From assembly GCF_900089775.1 (NCBI RefSeq), contig NZ_FLOB01000004.1, positions 1-64,000 of the forward strand: DNA of 64,000 nt. Reading direction: 5' to 3'. Made by a program: the position numbers and the translations under genes. Below the pieces are notes generated by a model. The model made no database searches and had not been told where the DNA came from. It saw only the letters and a program-made list of their open reading frames with translations. How positions within the stretch are numbered: position 1 is the first letter of the stretch; every line of letters begins with the position of its first letter. Below are positions 29,192 through 39,153 of the stretch, piece after piece. Source of the stretch: Marinomonas spartinae. GTDB taxonomy: Bacteria > Pseudomonadota > Gammaproteobacteria > Pseudomonadales > Marinomonadaceae.

Positions 29192-30751
29192 ATGCAAGAT
29201 AATCCACGTCAATCTATCTTTGTATTGATTGTCGAAGGTGATCCATTAGAGGCTGAGCATCTTCAGAAAATGACTCGTGCATTGGGGTGGCAATCAAGCC
29301 TTGTCAATGATGGCTCAGAACTCGTTCAAGAGTGTATTAAACATCATGATAATAGCTCGTGCTCACCGGATGCCTTGCTGGTTAGCAGCCATATGCCTTC
29401 TATGGATGGCCTAAGTGTGATTCGTTCGTTGGCTCGTCATATTGGTCGAGAACATCTGCCAGCAGTGCTGATGATTTCTGCTTACGATAGTGACACTATA
29501 ATCGAACAAGACACAGAGCGTTTGGTGGACCGTGTTTTGCGTAGGCCATTAAATGCATACGTGTTATTTAACGCGGTTAACGATGTTGTGACAAATCGGA
29601 CGGGGGATTTCAATCGAGTATTACAAGCTACCTCAACCGAAGTCATCAAGGCCAAATGGTTACCCAATACCCATCTACTTGTTGTCGATGATAGCGCGAC
29701 GAATCTAGCGGTGGTCAGCTATATCTTGAAGCATAACGGTGCGAAGCTACAGACGGCGAATGGTGGTGAGGAAGCGTTAACTATTCTGGAAGACCCAAAC
29801 AATGATTTTGATGCCGTTTTAATGGATGTGCAAATGCCAGGGATTGATGGCTTGGAGGCAACGCGCCTTATTCGTAAGCGCTTGCACTTAACGACTTTGC
29901 CTATTATTGCCCTGACTGCAGGGACGTTGGGAGAAGAAAAAGATCAGGCATTAGAAGCCGGGATGAGTGACTTTTTGACAAAACCCATTGATCCATCAAC
30001 GCTTATTACTCTATTACGATTGTATATTAAGGTCTATCGAGGCAAGGATATTCCGATAGAATCGCTACATTTGTCTATTTCTGAACCGCCTAGTCCAGAC
30101 GCCCAACAGACAACTTCGGAGCAGGATCGTTGGCCAGCTATTGTAGAGCTCAATATAGATAAAGCGAAAAATATGTTGCTTGGAGACAAGTCATTATTTT
30201 TGGAGACTTTAGAGAATCTGTTAATTGAATATACTAATTTAAGTATGCCTCCTCAAATCGATATTGATGATGCAGGACACGCAGACTTGCGCCTTCAAAT
30301 AGCCTCTCAAGTGCATAAGTTAAGAAGTGTTTCTGGTATGGTTGGGGCGGAGAGGGTGCAGCAATTAGCATCCGAAGCTGAGGAAATAGTACGTACTGAA
30401 AGTCAGTCAGCAAAAAAAGTGTTGATGAATCTTTCTCTAGCATTACAAGCCTTGCAGAATGCTAGCAAAGAGGCATTAGATTTATGGAAAGAAGAAAAGC
30501 ATGTCGCCTCAACATCCGCTGTCGACGTGATGGCTCCATCGCTTAAATTGGAAACGGTAGAATCTATTTTGATACTGTTAGCAGAACAAGACTTAAGTGC
30601 TTTGGATGAAGTGGATGAGCACAGTGCGTCACTTCGTGAGGCTTTAGGGAATGAGAGGTTCCAACAATTTCAACGAAGTTTAGCTAGGCTTGACTATAAA
30701 CAGGCCATAGCTTTTCTGGAGCCACTCATAAAAAGGCTTGGGGATACGTAG
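29192..30751 (+). CDS. Two-receiver HPt phosphorelay protein (first receiver degenerate)
   Basis: A 519-aa protein with domain order REC1 (about 8-130), REC2 (160-283), a linker, then an HPt domain (about 320-430). REC2 is complete: VVDDS at 164-168, phospho-acceptor D212 in LMDVQMPGIDG and K264 in LTKPID. REC1 lacks the phospho-acceptor: S65 replaces the Asp in LLVSSHMPSMDG, and RRP replaces the conserved Lys motif. HPt carries H375 in QVHKLRSVSGMVGA. No kinase domain is present, so it must receive phosphate from an external kinase. A REC-GGDEF gene starts 4 bases after its stop. Confidence 0.9.
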   Translation: MQDNPRQSIFVLIVEGDPLEAEHLQKMTRALGWQSSLVNDGSELVQECIKHHDNSSCSPDALLVSSHMPSMDGLSVIRSLARHIGREHLPAVLMISAYDSDTIIEQDTERLVDRVLRRPLNAYVLFNAVNDVVTNRTGDFNRVLQATSTEVIKAKWLPNTHLLVVDDSATNLAVVSYILKHNGAKLQTANGGEEALTILEDPNNDFDAVLMDVQMPGIDGLEATRLIRKRLHLTTLPIIALTAGTLGEEKDQALEAGMSDFLTKPIDPSTLITLLRLYIKVYRGKDIPIESLHLSISEPPSPDAQQTTSEQDRWPAIVELNIDKAKNMLLGDKSLFLETLENLLIEYTNLSMPPQIDIDDAGHADLRLQIASQVHKLRSVSGMVGAERVQQLASEAEEIVRTESQSAKKVLMNLSLALQALQNASKEALDLWKEEKHVASTSAVDVMAPSLKLETVESILILLAEQDLSALDEVDEHSASLREALGNERFQQFQRSLARLDYKQAIAFLEPLIKRLGDT

Positions 30752-30755
30752 CAAT

Positions 30756-31703
30756 ATGAAGAAATTAGTAGAGAGCCAACGTTCTGATATTCTGATTATT
30801 GATGATGATAGGACGGTAGTCATAGCGTTAAACAAAGCGCTAAAAGATCTTGGGCGAGTTCGTTTTGCATTGAACTCTAAGCAAGCATTTGTAATGATAG
30901 AAGAGCGACTTCCCGATTTGATTTTATTGGACGTAGAGTTACCCGATATGCGAGGTTTAGAAGTATGCTCGACTCTAAAAAATAGACCGGATACCAAAAG
31001 CATCCCCGTGCTTTTTATTACCAGTAATACCGAAGTGGGTTTTGAAGAGAAAGTGTTCGATGTTGGGGGCGCGGATTATATAGCGAAGCCACTTAATCCT
31101 CGTGTTGTTGCCGCACGAGCCAAAACGCATGTTGCCTATCATCGAGCGATTGAGTTGCTAGAAAAGCTGGCCCATACCGATGCCATGACAGGTCTTGCGA
31201 ATAGACGTACGTTTGACGAGCAATTAGCTATAGAATTTAAGCGATGCTATCGTGAGCAAGAGCCGCTTACGGTGGCAATCATTGATATTGATGAATTCAA
31301 AAAATACAACGATCATTTTGGTCATATCGCGGGTGATGAGTGTATCAAAAGTATCGCTTCAGCTTTAATTCGCAGTGCTAGACGGCCAGTCGATCTTGTG
31401 GCTAGGTATGGTGGCGAGGAGTTTGCGCTTCTTTTCCCAAACACACATGCTGAAGGCGTAGGGATGCATCTTGATAATCTACTCCACACGATAGAGCAGT
31501 TGAATTTAACGCATGCTCCCAGCGCTACCCATGATGTTGTTACCATATCGATTGGCTACAGCACTCTCACTTGTAAGCAAGCTGCTAGACTGGACGACTG
31601 GGATGTTGTTCAAGCGGCAGACAAAGCTCTTTATGAATCAAAGGAAAAGGGTCGAAATCGCGTTAGTTTTGCGAAAGTCGATGCGCCGTCTAGCCTTACT
31701 TGA
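30756..31703 (+). CDS. REC-GGDEF response regulator diguanylate cyclase
   Basis: At 315 aa it has REC with IIDDD (14-18), D59 in LLDVELPDMRG, and K111 in AKPLNP, then a GGDEF domain starting at LAHTDAMTGLANRRTF. The active site is GGEEF (219-223) and the product-inhibition site RxxD is R210-P-V-D213. It should make cyclic-di-GMP when phosphorylated. The ATG at 30756 is chosen over an in-frame TTG at 30738 inside the upstream gene. Directly behind the REC-REC-HPt gene, it is the likely output of that relay (a WspR/PleD-like arrangement). Confidence 0.92.
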   Translation: MKKLVESQRSDILIIDDDRTVVIALNKALKDLGRVRFALNSKQAFVMIEERLPDLILLDVELPDMRGLEVCSTLKNRPDTKSIPVLFITSNTEVGFEEKVFDVGGADYIAKPLNPRVVAARAKTHVAYHRAIELLEKLAHTDAMTGLANRRTFDEQLAIEFKRCYREQEPLTVAIIDIDEFKKYNDHFGHIAGDECIKSIASALIRSARRPVDLVARYGGEEFALLFPNTHAEGVGMHLDNLLHTIEQLNLTHAPSATHDVVTISIGYSTLTCKQAARLDDWDVVQAADKALYESKEKGRNRVSFAKVDAPSSLT

Positions 31704-31728: not shown

Positions 31729-33753
31729 TTAAAGTTTCGCGATCATGACCCCACGGTAATGGCAGTGGATTTGCGTTTTATCAACCTCTATTCCTGGTGT
31801 TTTATAAAGTACGTCTAGTTGGGTGGTGTTTTTTGGTAATGGCACGCTTAGAGGGTGGTCTTCACGATAAAAGACAAGCCAAAGGTGTGTCGATAAATCC
31901 GCTGGGGTAAGGATGGCCGATAAAAAATCTCGCTCTTTCTGAGCCCAGTCGTCGTTAGTCATGGGTTGGCTGTGCTCATTCAGCCACTCTATTTGGTCTG
32001 AGGGTTGGTGTTGGTATAGGGGGTCATCTTCTAAATAAATTTCTGCCAGAATAGGGTAGGCTTTTCGTATCGCCATTAAGCTTGTAATGGCTTCCTGTAA
32101 TGCGGTTCTAGGGGCACTTTCTTCCCACTTAAGCCATGTTATGTCGTTGTCTTGACAATAGGCGTTGTTGTTTCCTTGTTGCGTGTGAGATAGCTCATCA
32201 CCACCCAGAATATGGGGGGTTCCCTGACTAAGAAGCAAGGTTGCGATAAAGCAAAGTTGTTGATTTAAGCGACGTTGCAAGATCTCGGCGTTGTCTGTTT
32301 CACCTTCGACACCAAAGTTTTGGCTAATATTGTCGCCGTGGCCATCTCGGTTGTTTTCCATGTTTGCCATATTATGGCGGCGATGGTAAGAGACCAAATC
32401 ATGCAGTGTGTAGCCATCATGGTAGGTGATGTAGTTGACAGAATGCAACGCACTTTTTTGACCCTTATGGAAAATGTCTCTTGACCCCATCAAGCGTGTG
32501 GCCAATTGAGAAGTTAAACCTTCATCACCACGCCAAAAACGTCGTATCGCATCACGGTATTGGTCGTTACACTCTAAGAAACCTCTAGGAAATTGCCCTA
32601 GTTGATAACCGTTTGGACCAATATCCCAAGGCTCCATAACTAAACAGGCTTCACTTAGTACTGGGTCTTGTAAGATGGCTTGTAATAACGGCGCTTTAGC
32701 TGAAAAATCATCGTCTGTTCTACCCAAATCCACACCTAAATCAAAGCGGAATCCATCGATACCCATGACCGTTATCCAATAGCGCATGCTGTCGCAAATA
32801 AGACGAATACTGCTTGGGTTATAGGTATCCAGGCAGTTTCCACAGCCAGTATAATTAAGATATTGACCTTCTTTGTGGCGATAATATTGGGCATTATCCA
32901 AGCCGCGGAAGCAGACGCTTGCTTGATCCATCTCGCTTTCGGCTGTGTGGTTGTACACCACGTCGAGAATAACCTCAAAACCAGCTTCACGAAGCCCATC
33001 TATCATGGTTTGAAACTCGCTGATGGCATCTTTTTGAGCATAAGAGGGTTCTGGGACAAAAAAGCTGATGGGGTTATAGCCCCAGTAGTTGCTGAGTCTG
33101 AGGTGTTGTAAGTGTCTTTCTGTGGCAAAGCTGAAGCAAGGCATTAACTGAATGGTGGTAATGCCAAGGGACTTTAAGTGTTTAATACCAGGTTTGGAAA
33201 TGACTCCAAGATAGGTACCTTTAAGCGTCTCATCAATGGGTAAGTTCTGACTGAACCCTTTGACATGCAGCTCGTATAAGGCGCGTTGGGCATGTGGCAC
33301 ATGGACTCGTTTAGGGCGAATCGATGAGGCGCTAACACGTCTAACAATGGATTTGGGCACACAATAGGCGGAGTCTACAAGATGTTGTTCCCCGTCTTTT
33401 GTGATAGCGGCTTGATCCTCATGCCATTCGAGTTTACCGGATAATGCTTTCGCATAAGGGTCGATAAGCAGCTTGTTTTCGTTAAATAGTCGCTGTGAAC
33501 TGGGGTTAAAAGGACCTTGTGCACGAAATCCATAGTGTTGGCCTTCTGTTAAGCCAAACACTTCCATATGCCATATACCACGACGCTTAGCAATAAAAGG
33601 CAAGCGTTCTAGTTCGTTCCCTTTGTCGTCAAAGAGGCACAAAAAAATGGTGCTGGCCTCTTCAGAGGCGACGGCGAAATTAACACCATTTTCGGTGATT
33701 TGAGCCCCGAGGGGAAAAGGATGGCCAAGATTAACCGTGTAAGTATCGCTCAT
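31729..33753 (-). CDS. glgX: Glycogen debranching enzyme GlgX
   Basis: A 674-aa GH13 enzyme with an N-terminal carbohydrate-binding module (LGHPFPLGAQITENGVNFAVAS) and the TIM barrel. Catalytic segments: DVVYNHTAE, DGFRFDLGVDLGR (nucleophile Asp), LVMEPWDIG (acid Glu) and YHDGYTLHDL (transition-state Asp nearby). It hydrolyses alpha-1,6 branches of phosphorylase-limit glycogen. The ATG at 33753 has AAGGA seven bases upstream; a GTG at 33774 would overlap the glgB end. It is the last gene of the glycogen operon and convergent with the GGDEF gene. Confidence 0.93.
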   Translation of the reverse strand: MSDTYTVNLGHPFPLGAQITENGVNFAVASEEASTIFLCLFDDKGNELERLPFIAKRRGIWHMEVFGLTEGQHYGFRAQGPFNPSSQRLFNENKLLIDPYAKALSGKLEWHEDQAAITKDGEQHLVDSAYCVPKSIVRRVSASSIRPKRVHVPHAQRALYELHVKGFSQNLPIDETLKGTYLGVISKPGIKHLKSLGITTIQLMPCFSFATERHLQHLRLSNYWGYNPISFFVPEPSYAQKDAISEFQTMIDGLREAGFEVILDVVYNHTAESEMDQASVCFRGLDNAQYYRHKEGQYLNYTGCGNCLDTYNPSSIRLICDSMRYWITVMGIDGFRFDLGVDLGRTDDDFSAKAPLLQAILQDPVLSEACLVMEPWDIGPNGYQLGQFPRGFLECNDQYRDAIRRFWRGDEGLTSQLATRLMGSRDIFHKGQKSALHSVNYITYHDGYTLHDLVSYHRRHNMANMENNRDGHGDNISQNFGVEGETDNAEILQRRLNQQLCFIATLLLSQGTPHILGGDELSHTQQGNNNAYCQDNDITWLKWEESAPRTALQEAITSLMAIRKAYPILAEIYLEDDPLYQHQPSDQIEWLNEHSQPMTNDDWAQKERDFLSAILTPADLSTHLWLVFYREDHPLSVPLPKNTTQLDVLYKTPGIEVDKTQIHCHYRGVMIAKL

Positions 33754-33766
33754 GAAAGGTTCCTTT

Positions 33767-35974
33767 TTATTCACCTAGCCACTTTAAAAAGACACCGCTG
33801 AGAGGCGGCACTTTGATTTCAATGCTATTGGCTTTGTCGTGGCTGGCGATAGCCTCAGTTTGATAGATGTGATTTTTTTGGCAGCCTTGGCTTAATAGGT
33901 AATCACTTCCCGAGTAGCGTCCATCATCGGAGTTGAAGATCACTTGATAGCGGCCCGGCTCTGGTACACCGATACGATAGTTTGCTTGAGGCACAGGTGT
34001 AAAGTTGGTGATAGCGATACCATGGGCGGTATACTCTTTGGCTTTTCGAACAAAGACTAAGATACTGTTAGCACTATCATCATAACTGATCCATTCAAAA
34101 CCATGGCCTGAGTGATCTAGATGCAGGGCTTGTTCATTTTTATATAAATGGTTTAAATCTTGCGTTAAACGGTGTTGCCCTTGGTGGTAATCAATGTCCA
34201 GCAAATGCCAATCAAGAGAACGTTGGTGACTCCATTCCTGACCTTGAGCAAATTCGTTGCCCATAAAGTTGAGTTTTTTGCCTGGGTGAAAATACATGTA
34301 AGCGGAAAAAACGCGTAAGTTCGCGAATTTTTGCCATGGATCACCGGGCATTTTTTCGATCATGGACCCTTTGCCGTGGACAACTTCATCGTGTGATATA
34401 GGCAAGACAAACTGTTCGTCGAACGCATAGACCATGCTAAAGGTGAGTTCACCTTGATGGTATTTGCGATGTACAGGGTCTTTTTTAATGTACTCTAATG
34501 AGTCGTTCATCCAGCCCATGTTCCATTTAAAGCCAAAACCCAGGCCATCCATATAGGTGGGTTTCGACACACCAGGGAAGGCGGTTGACTCCTCTGCCAC
34601 GGTAAAACAACGAGGATGATTTAAATAGACGGTTTCGTTCAGTCGACGTAAAAAAGCAATGGCTTCGTAATTGTGGTTGCCGCCATCCTGATTAGGAATC
34701 CATTCTCCCTCTTCCCGTGAATAATCAAGATAAAGCATCGAGGCGACGGCATCCACACGTAGGCCATCTATATGGAACTCTTCAAGCCAAAAAACCGCGT
34801 TACTGATGAGGTAGTTGACGACATGATCCTTGCCAAAGTCGTAAATCAATGAGTTCCATTCCGGATGCCAGCCCTTTTTTGGGTCGGGGTATTCATATTG
34901 TTTGCTACCATCAAAGTTGGCCAAACCATGGCTGTCTGCTGGGAAGTGAGCGGGTACCCAATCCATGATGACACCAATGTTTGCCTGATGGAGTGCATCG
35001 ACTAGCTCTTTGAACTCTTCTGGTGTGCCATAGCGGGAGGTTACAGCGTATAAACCAACGGGTTGATAGCCCCAAGAGCCGTCAAATGGGTATTCACTGA
35101 TAGGCAGTAATTCCACGTGGGTATAGCCCATTTCTTGTAGGTAAGGAACTAATTCGGTTTTCAATTCCAAGTAGGTGAGTGGCTGGTTATCTTCTTTGCG
35201 ACGCCATGAGCCAAGGTGAAGTTCATAAATGCTCATGGGGGTTTCGTAAATATCGACAAGTGGACGCTGGGTCCATTGCTCATCTTGCCATTGATGTTTT
35301 TCATCAAAGCAGACTACGCTTGCAAAAGACGGGTATTGTTCAATACGCTGAGCAAAAGGGTCGCTGCGGTGTGGCAGGATATCGCCATTGTTCGCACGAA
35401 TTTCAAATTTATAGCGGGCGCCATGATTGACGTCTGGAATGAACAGTCGCCAGATGCCATCACCATTGCTTGACATAGGATGAAGGCGTCCGTCCCAAGC
35501 ATTAAAGTCACCAACCACTGAAACCGAACGCGCAGCTGGAGCATACACAGCAAACCGTGTGCCATTAATGGTTAATTGCTTGTTAATGTATGCACCGCGA
35601 TGTATCGCCCCCTGACTTTTGTAGAGGTTAGCTTGATGATGCTCAGGGTCGTGAAAGGTGGCGTCGGAAAATTGGTAAGGGTCGACAATGGTATAGGTAT
35701 TGTCGCCATAAGTGACGTTAATACGGTAGTAAAAAGGGGCTTTTGCTTTAGGAAAAGATAACTCAAATAACCCATCTTTATGAAGACAGTCCATTTTTCC
35801 TAAAACGGTATCATCCGTCAGTGATATCACCGTGATAGCGGTTGCAGTAGGACGCCATACAGTCAGAGTAAAACCACTGGAAGTCTTTGATTTTTGTAAG
35901 CCTAAACAGCCAAATGGGTCGGCACAACGTGCGTTCAATATATCGTTAATTAGAACATTTTTAAGCGGATCCAT
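33767..35974 (-). CDS. glgB: 1,4-alpha-glucan branching enzyme GlgB
   Basis: A 735-aa protein. An N-terminal CBM48-like region includes VSVVGDFNAWDGRLHPM. The GH13 barrel has DWVPAHFP, DGLRVDAVASMLYLDYSRE (nucleophile Asp), VAEESTAFPGVSKP (acid Glu) and ISHDEVVHGKGSM. It makes alpha-1,6 branches in glycogen. GGAG stands seven bases before the ATG. The glgX start follows its stop by about 13 bases, and the large GH15-like gene ends 41 bases upstream, so all three form one transcript. Confidence 0.95.
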   Translation of the reverse strand: MDPLKNVLINDILNARCADPFGCLGLQKSKTSSGFTLTVWRPTATAITVISLTDDTVLGKMDCLHKDGLFELSFPKAKAPFYYRINVTYGDNTYTIVDPYQFSDATFHDPEHHQANLYKSQGAIHRGAYINKQLTINGTRFAVYAPAARSVSVVGDFNAWDGRLHPMSSNGDGIWRLFIPDVNHGARYKFEIRANNGDILPHRSDPFAQRIEQYPSFASVVCFDEKHQWQDEQWTQRPLVDIYETPMSIYELHLGSWRRKEDNQPLTYLELKTELVPYLQEMGYTHVELLPISEYPFDGSWGYQPVGLYAVTSRYGTPEEFKELVDALHQANIGVIMDWVPAHFPADSHGLANFDGSKQYEYPDPKKGWHPEWNSLIYDFGKDHVVNYLISNAVFWLEEFHIDGLRVDAVASMLYLDYSREEGEWIPNQDGGNHNYEAIAFLRRLNETVYLNHPRCFTVAEESTAFPGVSKPTYMDGLGFGFKWNMGWMNDSLEYIKKDPVHRKYHQGELTFSMVYAFDEQFVLPISHDEVVHGKGSMIEKMPGDPWQKFANLRVFSAYMYFHPGKKLNFMGNEFAQGQEWSHQRSLDWHLLDIDYHQGQHRLTQDLNHLYKNEQALHLDHSGHGFEWISYDDSANSILVFVRKAKEYTAHGIAITNFTPVPQANYRIGVPEPGRYQVIFNSDDGRYSGSDYLLSQGCQKNHIYQTEAIASHDKANSIEIKVPPLSGVFLKWLGE

Positions 35975-36015: not shown

Positions 36016-39000
36016 TTAGTGTTTCTTTTCCGTTACTTGTTGGCGTTGTCGACTGTGTAATTTGCTGACCGCCCAACGCAGATATTGGTTCACTTTATTT
36101 GGTGTTAACTGGGCAAATTCATCTAAGGCGGCTTCAGTCAAATTTTCTTCAGGGTGATCTACTTGGTGTTGTTTCACATGATCTACCGCTGCACGGGAAA
36201 CCAAAACGGGCAGATTAATCTCTTGATCGAAATGGCAGTTTTTATGTTGCTGACAAAATTGAATAAAAGCGTATAAGCCTTCAAAAATTAGGCTTTTATA
36301 CCAAACGGGATGAATGTCAGAGGTAAGACTTTCTATCAAAATTGCAAAGGTATCTTCCCCCGGTGTCATGGAGCTTAATGTTTGTTTGCAGTGTAAGGTG
36401 GTGTTACTTTGCATATCACCAAACACAATGGCATCCACATGGCTTAGGCTTTCCCATAGCTGTTTGAGCATGGATTCCGGTAGTTTTGTGATGATACCTT
36501 GTTCTATACGCCAGTCGAACCAGTCCATATCTTTCATTTTACTGTTGTCGCTGTCTACTTTGTGATGATAGCGAACATGGTTCACCACGTGGTTAAAATC
36601 CTCATGTTTTTGTTGTAACACTTGTTTGAAGGTGTCGTAAAGCAAACTAGGTGAAAGTTTTGATAAGGTTTCGAATACGGGGGCGTTTTCATCAGGGTTT
36701 ATATGCCTAGCACAGAGTAAGGCCAAACTATGAATACGAATGGTTCGTACTCCAGAAAAAAACTCAGGATGAACTTTTATCAAAGTGCCTGCAATGGCTA
36801 TCAACTCATGACAAATGACTAAAGATAGGGACGATGATGAGGTTGATTTTAACAGCTCCATAATTTCATCTTGGTGTAATGGTAAGGTGATGTCAGTTTC
36901 GTTTTCCAGCGCATCCCCGACGACTAATAGGCGCTGACGAACCGTAATGTCGGCGATATATGTAGCAAGATCTGTTGTGGGCTTCAGCATCAAAGAGAAC
37001 AGTTGTCTAGAAGCTTGCCAGTTTTCTGTGAGAAGTGCTTGAGTGTAGACGGAGTCCAATACTTTATAGGCGGTGACGGCGGGTGTTGACCCAGGGATAG
37101 TATTCATTAGCGCTCGTCGTGTGCCTAGTTCTATTAAGGAGTCAATGGCTTCCGATAAGCTTGGTTTTTGGTGTAAGCGAGCCAGTAATGTGTCTGTGTC
37201 GATCTCATGAATTTTTTGCGTATCGTAATGTGTATTGCTCTTCGCTAATGGCCAAGGTTTTTCGTGCAATGGTAACGTTGCACCCAGTACCTGGGATTCT
37301 GGTGATACAATCGTGATGGTTCGACGGTTCCCTGATTTAAAAGCATTCTTGGCAGATTGAGCAATCACTCGAAATTCTTCCGTTTTACGTTCTTGCAGTT
37401 GACGGATAAACTCAAATAAATCATCGCAGCCAGGCATTTCGCTTAAGGCTTCATCGATCAAAATAGTAAACACGGCATTGGCAGGATAATACCAATGATC
37501 TTTAATAATATTTAATTCATTACTAATATGCGCTTTAAACAGTATGGGGTCGACTTTGCGATAGTCTTTGTCTTCATTCTGAATCCAAGATAAACACAAG
37601 TAGCTTTCATCGTTAATACTAAAAGGTTGGGACGTGGCTAAGCTGTTTAATGCTCTATTAGGGCGCCCACTGAGCCCTAATGCCGGAGAGGCGCCTAAGT
37701 GACGATAGGTTTCGACAAGCTGGACAGCACTAATGGCCTTAAAAGGAGCAATTTCATCGATGGTTTGACAGAGGCAGCCCGCCTTTAACAGCTTTTCTTT
37801 TACTGCATTGTTTTGCGCGAGAATCACCATGGAGGTGGTGACCACGTTAGGTCGATGCTGAATACGATGCAATCCTAGAGGGTCGAGATCATCCGTTCGA
37901 ATCAGCTCATCATCGAGCATTTTACCCACTAAATATAAGCTTTGTGCCCAGACGAGAGGCAGGTTGTCATTCGCAAGGCGCTTTTGCGAACCGGGTTTTT
38001 CTTTTTCTGCCAAGATGCTCTCTTTCGGGACATAGTAGAGTTCGGGGAGTAGCATCTCACCGTCTTTTTCTATCATCAGTGTTTCGAGTTTATGGCGATA
38101 GAAATTTGCGCTTTCCCAGTCGCGGGCAAAAAGTCGGTCAATGTACAAATAAGTGAAAAAGAGTGGCCATTCAGATTCAATATGTTCAAAGTTAATCAAC
38201 TCATTGTATTCGTAGTAGATTCGGCTTTGATCTTCTAGAACCGATTGATGTCCATCTAATAAGAAGCGTTTACATCCATATTCACCACCTAGCTTGCTAA
38301 GGATTTCATCACGAGTTTTTTGGGTAAGTTTTTCGTCATTCACTGCAAAGGCAGGAAAACTGATGATGCTTAACAGCGCGCTGTCCACCTCTTTTGAGCG
38401 TGACTCTTTTGGCAGGAGAGATTGTAACACGGAACCTGCTCTGGCCACGGCGTCTGCAAAGGAATGGATGACTGCCCATTCAGGCCCGTCATTACCAAAT
38501 AAATTTAAGCCATCTAAGGCCTCCATTGCGGCTTTGGCCATGCCGACGGAACTGGCGTTGATTTCCGCTTTGCCGTTATTTACTTTATTACCTCGCTCCC
38601 AAATACCGTAATCAGGGGTGCGATAGGTGCGAGAAATATAATAGACGAGGTTCTGAATGAAATTGGCTTCATCGTGGGTGAAGATGAGTTTGCTACCCGC
38701 TTTGGTCATTTGAGCCAATGTCAATAAGTAGAAGCTGGTGGCATCAATTTGCAAGTGGCCCCAAGCATCGTCTGCGACCGCTTCGAGCCCTGTTTTGGTG
38801 TCGTATTTTGCATGCAGTGCATCTTTGGGGTCGAGGCTGTGTTTAAAGGCTTCAACTTTATGGGATTGGCGCATCATGGCATACAGCAAGCCACGCATCA
38901 TTTTGATGCAGGAATACTCTAACTCATGAGCACGTTTATCTGGATTAGATGCACGTTTGTAGGCGAGGTGAAGAGCCCAGACAGCTTGAATGCTATAAAC

Positions 39001-39153
39001 GTTATCTCGCACCCAGGCATCGGTGTAGTTGCCGTGGTTATTAATGCTGGTGCTAGCGGGAAAAAGTCCAGTAACAGGGTGTTGCCGAGAGAGGATCACA
39101 GCCTGGATGTGTTTGTATAGAGAGTTTAGCTTTTTTTGGGTATCAAACGCCAT
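36016..39153 (-). CDS. GH15 / phosphorylase-kinase-alpha-like protein (1045 aa)
   Basis: The N-terminal part (to about residue 450) is an (alpha/alpha)6 barrel of the GH15 glucoamylase / phosphorylase kinase alpha-beta class: VTGLFPASTSINNHGNYTDAWVRDNVYSIQAVW, DDAWGHLQIDATSFYLL, YGIWERGNKVNNG and INASSVGMAKAAMEAL. The remaining 600 residues are helical and resemble the extended regulatory half of eukaryotic phosphorylase kinase subunits rather than a simple glucoamylase. Role in the cell is unknown; position as first gene before glgB and glgX places it in glycogen turnover. No signal peptide, so it is cytoplasmic. AAGGA precedes the ATG. Confidence 0.8.
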   Translation of the reverse strand: MAFDTQKKLNSLYKHIQAVILSRQHPVTGLFPASTSINNHGNYTDAWVRDNVYSIQAVWALHLAYKRASNPDKRAHELEYSCIKMMRGLLYAMMRQSHKVEAFKHSLDPKDALHAKYDTKTGLEAVADDAWGHLQIDATSFYLLTLAQMTKAGSKLIFTHDEANFIQNLVYYISRTYRTPDYGIWERGNKVNNGKAEINASSVGMAKAAMEALDGLNLFGNDGPEWAVIHSFADAVARAGSVLQSLLPKESRSKEVDSALLSIISFPAFAVNDEKLTQKTRDEILSKLGGEYGCKRFLLDGHQSVLEDQSRIYYEYNELINFEHIESEWPLFFTYLYIDRLFARDWESANFYRHKLETLMIEKDGEMLLPELYYVPKESILAEKEKPGSQKRLANDNLPLVWAQSLYLVGKMLDDELIRTDDLDPLGLHRIQHRPNVVTTSMVILAQNNAVKEKLLKAGCLCQTIDEIAPFKAISAVQLVETYRHLGASPALGLSGRPNRALNSLATSQPFSINDESYLCLSWIQNEDKDYRKVDPILFKAHISNELNIIKDHWYYPANAVFTILIDEALSEMPGCDDLFEFIRQLQERKTEEFRVIAQSAKNAFKSGNRRTITIVSPESQVLGATLPLHEKPWPLAKSNTHYDTQKIHEIDTDTLLARLHQKPSLSEAIDSLIELGTRRALMNTIPGSTPAVTAYKVLDSVYTQALLTENWQASRQLFSLMLKPTTDLATYIADITVRQRLLVVGDALENETDITLPLHQDEIMELLKSTSSSSLSLVICHELIAIAGTLIKVHPEFFSGVRTIRIHSLALLCARHINPDENAPVFETLSKLSPSLLYDTFKQVLQQKHEDFNHVVNHVRYHHKVDSDNSKMKDMDWFDWRIEQGIITKLPESMLKQLWESLSHVDAIVFGDMQSNTTLHCKQTLSSMTPGEDTFAILIESLTSDIHPVWYKSLIFEGLYAFIQFCQQHKNCHFDQEINLPVLVSRAAVDHVKQHQVDHPEENLTEAALDEFAQLTPNKVNQYLRWAVSKLHSRQRQQVTEKKH

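Follow-up and report, generated by a model that had tools for sequence, protein, structure and literature searches.

A Marinomonas homologue of phosphorylase kinase subunits

We examined the first 64,000 nucleotides of contig NZ_FLOB01000004.1 from Marinomonas spartinae (NCBI RefSeq assembly GCF_900089775.1; hereafter the window), in which a gene on the minus strand at positions 36016-39153 encodes a protein of 1045 aa. By sequence and predicted structure, this protein is a full-length homologue of the alpha and beta subunits of phosphorylase kinase (PhK), the first protein kinase to be characterised. It is probably a cytosolic exo-glucosidase (glucoamylase) of glycoside hydrolase family 15 (GH15), a member of the PhK alpha/beta family that would free glucose from glycogen. 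Its features are listed below; the boundaries between D1 and the D2-D5 half are our own and approximate.

36016..39153, minus strand: PhK alpha/beta-like GH15 protein, 1045 aa (ATG start, no internal stop)
37879..39153, minus strand: D1, GH15 (alpha/alpha)6-barrel glucoamylase-like domain, residues 1-425 (Pfam GH15 and superposition; approximate boundary)
36019..37878, minus strand: PhK-type D2-D5 half, residues 426-1045 (collinear with human PhK alpha and beta by profile and model; approximate boundaries)
36040..36678, minus strand: KPBB_C domain, residues 826-1038 (Pfam PF19292)

Two Pfam families matched the protein: Glyco_hydro_15 (1.3e-70, 238.9 bits, cut-off 22) and the C-terminal domain of phosphorylase b kinase, KPBB_C (2.7e-29, scoring 102.4 bits with a cut-off of 27). 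When the single sequence was searched against PDB sequences (E <=1), only two were returned, human PhK alpha (5.1e-160) and PhK beta (6.5e-138). A family profile built from 37 members (the window protein and thirty-six of eighty named loci) matched the same two at 2e-300 and 6.6e-246, collinear from D1 to the C-terminal domain, with a single extra row at E 2.1. Classical GH15 enzymes were not reached by this profile at E values up to 10.

The AlphaFold2 model of the protein (mean pLDDT 82.4, pTM 0.82) was searched with Foldseek, and the top eight rows were all PhK chains (E 6e-61 to 3e-54, TM 0.80-0.88 by either length). On human PhK alpha (8jfk_A), 929 residues superposed at 3.4 A (Z 53.3, 32% identity). 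The glycosidase 5z3a (Z 30.0), the bacterial glucoamylase 1lf6 (Z 28.0), and the Aspergillus glucoamylase 1gai (Z 23.8) superposed within residues 2-489. These three share the D1 fold (Z 24-30 when rounded) but differ in having just 13-18% identity and in matching the N-terminal half only. D1 of the window protein is 53.3% identical to that of human alpha and 45.8% to that of human beta; the two human subunits are 47.8% identical to each other in this domain, and a cyanobacterial relative (L105) reaches 64.8% identity to human alpha.

The window protein therefore combines a GH15-like D1 with a collinear D2-D5 half and a KPBB_C match above the curated cut-off, which places it in the PhK alpha/beta family. 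On the GH15 side, it has the catalytic domain, the fold match, and the two catalytic glutamates. A preliminary description of this DNA had proposed the likeness to PhK alpha from the layout of the protein, and the homology is now borne out by sequence, predicted structure, and active-site comparison. The extra helical half noted there proves, on structure prediction and comparison with PhK alpha, to be of the PhK type. That description also held eukaryotic PhK subunits to be the only well-known proteins of this layout. Among solved structures retrieved by sequence this holds, although the family has a wide bacterial distribution (see below).

Human PhK alpha (PHKA1, PDB 8jfk) and the window protein share collinear D1-D5 domains, the catalytic Glu pair, and a W-R-D motif; human PhK beta (PHKB, same entry) shares the collinear D1-D5. 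Human alpha is longer (1223 aa), and both human subunits are reported to carry a farnesylation CaaX box (PMC10978961, here and below from excerpts of that paper), which is absent from the C-terminus of the bacterial protein (...QVTEKKH). The bacterial gene also differs from human alpha in its setting, a glgB/glgX cluster without a kinase gene, and in occurring in genomes that have no phosphorylase match.

An invariant active site in D1

Three elements of the putative active site were located by alignment:

39001..39021, minus strand: DAWVRDN motif, residues 45-51
38596..38598, minus strand: codon of E186, catalytic Glu in GIWERG, equivalent to human PhK alpha E185 (human residue from PMC10978961)
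38041..38043, minus strand: codon of E371, catalytic Glu in LPELY, equivalent to human PhK alpha E371 (human residue from PMC10978961); K in human beta

We compared sixteen D1 sites, which apart from the two glutamates were of our own choosing, across eighty-six bacterial proteins (the eighty named loci, the window protein, and five from further genomes; many are close relatives and thus not independent). Glu185 and Glu371 have been named as the catalytic pair of human PhK alpha (PMC10978961), and their counterparts E186 and E371 were identical in 86/86 bacterial proteins. W47, R49, and D50 were likewise kept in all eighty-six and in human alpha, with the W and R altered in human beta. From fungal glucoamylase, we take these three residues to belong to subsite -1. 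Altogether fifteen of the sixteen sites were identical in every bacterial protein, the exception being N189 (N in 79/86), which is also the sole site at which human alpha deviates. Human beta deviates at six (W47, R49, N189, N199, W329, and E371), all of which except N189 are invariant in the bacterial proteins.

Conservation was concentrated in D1, where 138 of 425 positions were invariant versus 21 of 620 in D2-D5 (37 sequences, with boundaries as above). Selection on the chemistry of an enzyme would be expected to leave such a pattern.

The glycogen cluster in the window

Two genes follow the PhK-like gene on the same strand:

33767..35974, minus strand: glgB, glycogen branching enzyme, 735 aa (NCBIfam GlgB NF003811, 4.8e-284)
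31729..33774, minus strand: glgX, glycogen debranching enzyme, 681 aa, GTG start as listed (NCBIfam GlgX TIGR02100, 4e-233)

The glgB gene lies 41 bp downstream of the PhK-like gene, and the listed glgX frame overlaps glgB by 8 bp. As first described, then, an intact 1045-aa reading frame heads the cluster, and its order is kept across the genus: in a comparison of sixteen loci by similarity, PhK-like gene, glgB, and glgX followed one another in 14/14 Marinomonas loci, with glgB and glgX unmatched in the two loci from outside the genus. All named Marinomonas loci (26/26) have glgB immediately 3' of the PhK-like gene in the same orientation, at a spacing of 0-124 bp. From this spacing and conservation, we infer that the three genes are co-transcribed. 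A pattern scan found fewer promoter-like sites than in shuffled sequence (6 vs a mean of 14.1) and more terminator-like sites (16 vs a mean of 7.1). It found no terminator-like site between the PhK-like gene and glgB; one on the minus strand at 33811-33792, within the end of glgB just ahead of glgX, argues weakly against read-through into glgX.

Judged by eye, the N-terminus of the PhK-like protein (MAFDTQKKLNSLYKHIQAV) has no signal peptide, and a cytoplasmic location is a reasonable reading of it. There is no kinase gene within the three-gene cluster, though no genome-wide search for kinases or calmodulin was made. The genes glgA and glgC of this genome are divergent and lie on a different contig from glgB and glgX (G000:C20, L135:5316-8090; by similarity). 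Just past the glycogen cluster, two overlapping genes of response-regulator/GGDEF type, named by reading only, head towards glgX on the plus strand (29192-31703).

Glycogen genes across Marinomonas

Pfam profiles were run on the forty-eight genomes assigned to the genus of the window's genome (Marinomonas, with M. spartinae as the closest named relative at 96% protein identity). The PhK-like gene (PF19292) was present in forty-six, missing in G002 and in G043 (77% complete), and glycogen synthase GlgA (PF08323) was present in the identical forty-six. GH15 (PF00723) also matched in 46/48, one apiece, this being the PhK-like gene itself. Glucokinase (PF02685) was found in 47/48 genomes and MalQ (PF02446) in none of the forty-eight. 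Glycogen phosphorylase (PF00343) was found in seventeen, all within the forty-six, with weak matches in G001 and G007. Twenty-nine of the forty-six genomes with both PhK-like gene and glycogen synthase thus have no phosphorylase match (28/45 without G011, which has a broken copy), and six of these are single-contig genomes (G009, G010, G012, G017, G030, and G039). On a tree of forty-five PhK-like proteins of the genus (G011 left out), phosphorylase underwent at least seven state changes while the PhK-like gene stayed. Judged by these profile matches, glycogen breakdown in Marinomonas is unusual, with no MalQ in 48/48 genomes and no phosphorylase match in 31/48.

G011 has broken frames in its PhK-like, glgA, and glucokinase genes alike, a pattern that looks more like an error of sequencing or assembly than the loss of genes.

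Neighbours in other genera

The wider survey of neighbours covered the best 80 of 576 confirmed loci, a set that is biased to near relatives and includes some short loci; neighbouring clusters were named by similarity and position. A glgB cluster was near the PhK-like gene in thirty-three loci (26/26 Marinomonas, 7/54 others) and a glgX cluster in twenty-eight (twenty-five Marinomonas, three others). In four of the seven non-Marinomonas loci (L052, L053, L055, and L062), glgB was immediately downstream on the same strand. The other three, from Cellvibrio, have glgB upstream on the opposite strand, with its start roughly 11 kb ahead of where the PhK-like gene ends, together with upstream glgC, GH57, and MalQ genes (Pfam run on L072). 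Two Hahella loci (L053 and L055; Pfam run on L053) carry PhK-like, glgB, glgX, phosphoglucomutase, glgC, and glgA genes. L132 belongs to a different family within the phylum; there the PhK-like gene comes after glgB, glgX, and MalQ on one strand (by similarity). A Cellvibrionales metagenome-assembled genome (L052:5214-17502) has DXP synthase, glucokinase, and a GH13 enzyme leading straight into the PhK-like gene, glgB, and glgX, again on one strand.

Glucokinase, as one cluster, was near the PhK-like gene in L052, L093, L098, L100, and L101. It is immediately downstream in two Methylococcaceae loci, after a gap of 11 bp, and KDPG aldolase stands between glucokinase and the PhK-like gene in L093 and L100. 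Of these, two glucokinases and one KDPG aldolase were checked by Pfam; the remaining three glucokinases and the other aldolase were named by cluster membership. In L014, with names by reading, glucokinase and Entner-Doudoroff genes accompany the PhK-like gene in the order zwf, pgl, edd, glk, eda, PhK-like.

Two Lentisphaera genomes carry a PknB-like Ser/Thr kinase gene (L094:8855-9799 and L129:10612-11556; 314 aa, 95.5% identical between the genomes), which shares the strand of the PhK-like gene and lies about 190 bp upstream of it; the neighbours in a third locus, L097, carry no annotation. The closest solved relatives of this kinase are PknB, StkP, and PknA, with no PhK gamma among twenty-two matches at E <=1e-20, and we rejected it as a bacterial PhK gamma. 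The pairing is possibly an independent partnership between a kinase and a PhK-like protein.

A probable glucoamylase of glycogen breakdown

We consider it likely that the window protein acts as a glucoamylase on glycogen. GlgX would take off the branches of glycogen, the D1 barrel would clip single glucose units from the ends of glycogen and of the malto-oligosaccharides so released, and glucokinase would pass the glucose to the Entner-Doudoroff route or to glycolysis. The PhK-like protein would then stand in for glycogen phosphorylase and MalQ in most species of Marinomonas. The D2-D5 half probably serves oligomerisation and glycogen binding, and perhaps control of D1. The analysis shows the co-occurrence, the operon layout, the homology, a fold by modelling, and an intact active site; the hydrolytic activity, substrate, and direction of action, as well as this role of D2-D5, are what we infer here. 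An active glucoamylase is favoured because the active site is invariant, conservation is concentrated in D1, twenty-nine Marinomonas genomes with glycogen synthase have no phosphorylase match, and glucokinase is a neighbour in some other genera. A role for GH15 in glycogen breakdown also has a precedent in the archaeon Sulfolobus acidocaldarius, since a GH15 null mutant shows the glycogen phenotype expected for a catabolic enzyme (PMC11046441, from excerpts of that paper). That archaeal GH15 glucoamylase and the window protein have in common the GH15 family and a presumed catabolic role in glycogen.

Several observations weigh against this explanation. The same catalytic pair is present in human PhK alpha, yet hydrolysis of maltose, isomaltose, or glycogen was undetectable both for PhK and for its alpha-gamma-delta subcomplex (excerpts of PMC10978961), so an intact active site is no proof of activity. 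Confidence in our model is low at residues 35-42, 184-193, and 294-328, which adjoin the active-site residues. Archaeal GH15 enzymes are described as secreted and as serving starch use (excerpts of PMC11046441), which weakens the S. acidocaldarius precedent. In the twenty-nine genomes without phosphorylase and MalQ matches, a further exo-acting glycogen enzyme did not appear, though exo-glucosidases of GH13, GH31, and GH97 were not surveyed. Outside Marinomonas, most loci have no visible glycogen-linked neighbour, glgB being directly downstream in just 4/54. Furthermore, among thirty-four non-Marinomonas genomes with the PhK-like gene (drawn from the fifty-four other loci, with genome completeness not told), phosphorylase was matched as well in twenty-eight, although only by partial matches in seven (best E 1e-11 to 1e-28), and six have no match. 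The genome of the window has a glycogen phosphorylase as well (G000:C15). As far as these matches go, the PhK-like gene is not a simple substitute for phosphorylase.

The preliminary description had left the choice between a glucoamylase and a regulatory scaffold. As a glucan-sensing scaffold, the protein would bind glycogen ends with D1 without cutting them, and D2-D5 would assemble or control GlgB, GlgX, and other glycogen enzymes. Such a role would fit with human PhK alpha and beta being regulatory, with hydrolysis by PhK undetected (excerpts of PMC10978961), with the retention of D2-D5 in family and fold, and with the constant position of glgB beside the gene in the twenty-six named Marinomonas loci. 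Nevertheless, the full active site is kept in all eighty-six proteins, whereas human beta is altered at 6/16 sites, and conservation is poor in D2-D5. Only 7/54 loci of other genera have the glgB cluster near the gene, and the twenty-nine phosphorylase-less and MalQ-less genomes would be left with no exo-acting glycogen enzyme among the families searched. Constraint on D1, the active site, and the phosphorylase-less genomes thus point to the glucoamylase, and we consider the scaffold unlikely.

Still less probable is an active GH15 enzyme with another action, for example a transglucosidase in place of MalQ, or else a trehalase or isomaltase. The complete lack of MalQ matches in the genus would suit the former, and a GH15-related transglucosidase, dextran dextrinase, does exist (PMC12446779, from excerpts), its structure (9ju0) matching our model at Z 26.7. 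The protein also has a weak NCBIfam match to archaeal GH15 trehalase (5.2e-08, 32 bits), but this is far under the cut-off of 820; moreover, the operon partners work on glycogen, and both glutamates of the GH15 pair are kept. Least credible, and in our estimate very improbable, is a bacterial PhK-type regulator of a protein kinase acting on glycogen phosphorylase. Full-length homology to PhK alpha/beta and the upstream kinase gene in two Lentisphaera genomes speak for it. A PhK subunit should be accompanied by phosphorylase wherever it occurs, but 29/46 Marinomonas genomes (28/45 without G011) and 6/34 others have no phosphorylase match; the PhK-like protein therefore cannot be regulating phosphorylase in those Marinomonas, and we set this aside as a general role. 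The three-gene cluster in the window contains no kinase, and the Lentisphaera kinase had no PhK gamma among its twenty-two matches.

Distribution and origin of the family

KPBB_C was found in 8/398 Pseudomonadota genomes (counting that of the window and two more Marinomonas), in 46/194 genomes of the phylum of Calothrix (forty-five above the cut-off), in 2/288 genomes of the phylum of Lentisphaera (query genome counted), and in Synechococcus elongatus. By these profile matches, the family is widespread in bacteria. The window protein belongs to a known family whose bacterial occurrence is implicit in Pfam KPBB_C. Among the best-ranked papers listed from the open-licence literature, we recognised none on bacterial relatives of PhK alpha/beta, whose role appears to be undescribed there.

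Trees of the family were unrooted, with two human rows at most, and had no outgroup because the sequence profile did not extend to the classical GH15 enzymes (E up to 10). Without beta, human alpha grouped with cyanobacteria and the cyanobacteria-like L130 and L131 (support 99/93); with both human rows, alpha and beta joined each other as flagged long branches. Trees of this kind do not tell which way a transfer between animals and bacteria would have gone. Phosphorylase b kinase is listed among thirty-nine core animal-specific families, with the subunit unstated (excerpts of PMC6040629). Taken with the tree and the distribution, this makes it plausible, without proving it, that the regulatory subunits of PhK arose in bacteria. 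L130:5630-8827 and L131:5427-8624, which come from the same class as the window, are 53-54% identical over their full length to the cyanobacterial L103 and fall with cyanobacteria in the tree, which suggests transfer between the two phyla.

Joining these lines, the PhK regulatory subunits may descend from a bacterial cytosolic glycogen glucoamylase near the cyanobacterial branch, by horizontal transfer on the animal stem; D2-D5 would then predate the kinase, and bacteria would still degrade glycogen with this protein, in many Marinomonas in place of phosphorylase. We offer this combined account tentatively and give it slightly less credence than its denial.

The glucoamylase fold in the two largest PhK subunits is unexplained, and according to the 2024 structure paper the domains have a physiological significance that 'still requires further investigation' (excerpts of PMC10978961). 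Bacterial relatives that have a complete active site, lie beside glycogen genes, and occur in genomes with no phosphorylase match offer a directly testable answer. If the explanation we favour is true, the fold would come from a functioning glucoamylase of glycogen that was afterwards co-opted for regulation, and the protein would supply an exo-acting step of glycogen breakdown in Marinomonas species without phosphorylase and MalQ. It would also provide a bacterial system in which to study the domains of PhK alpha.

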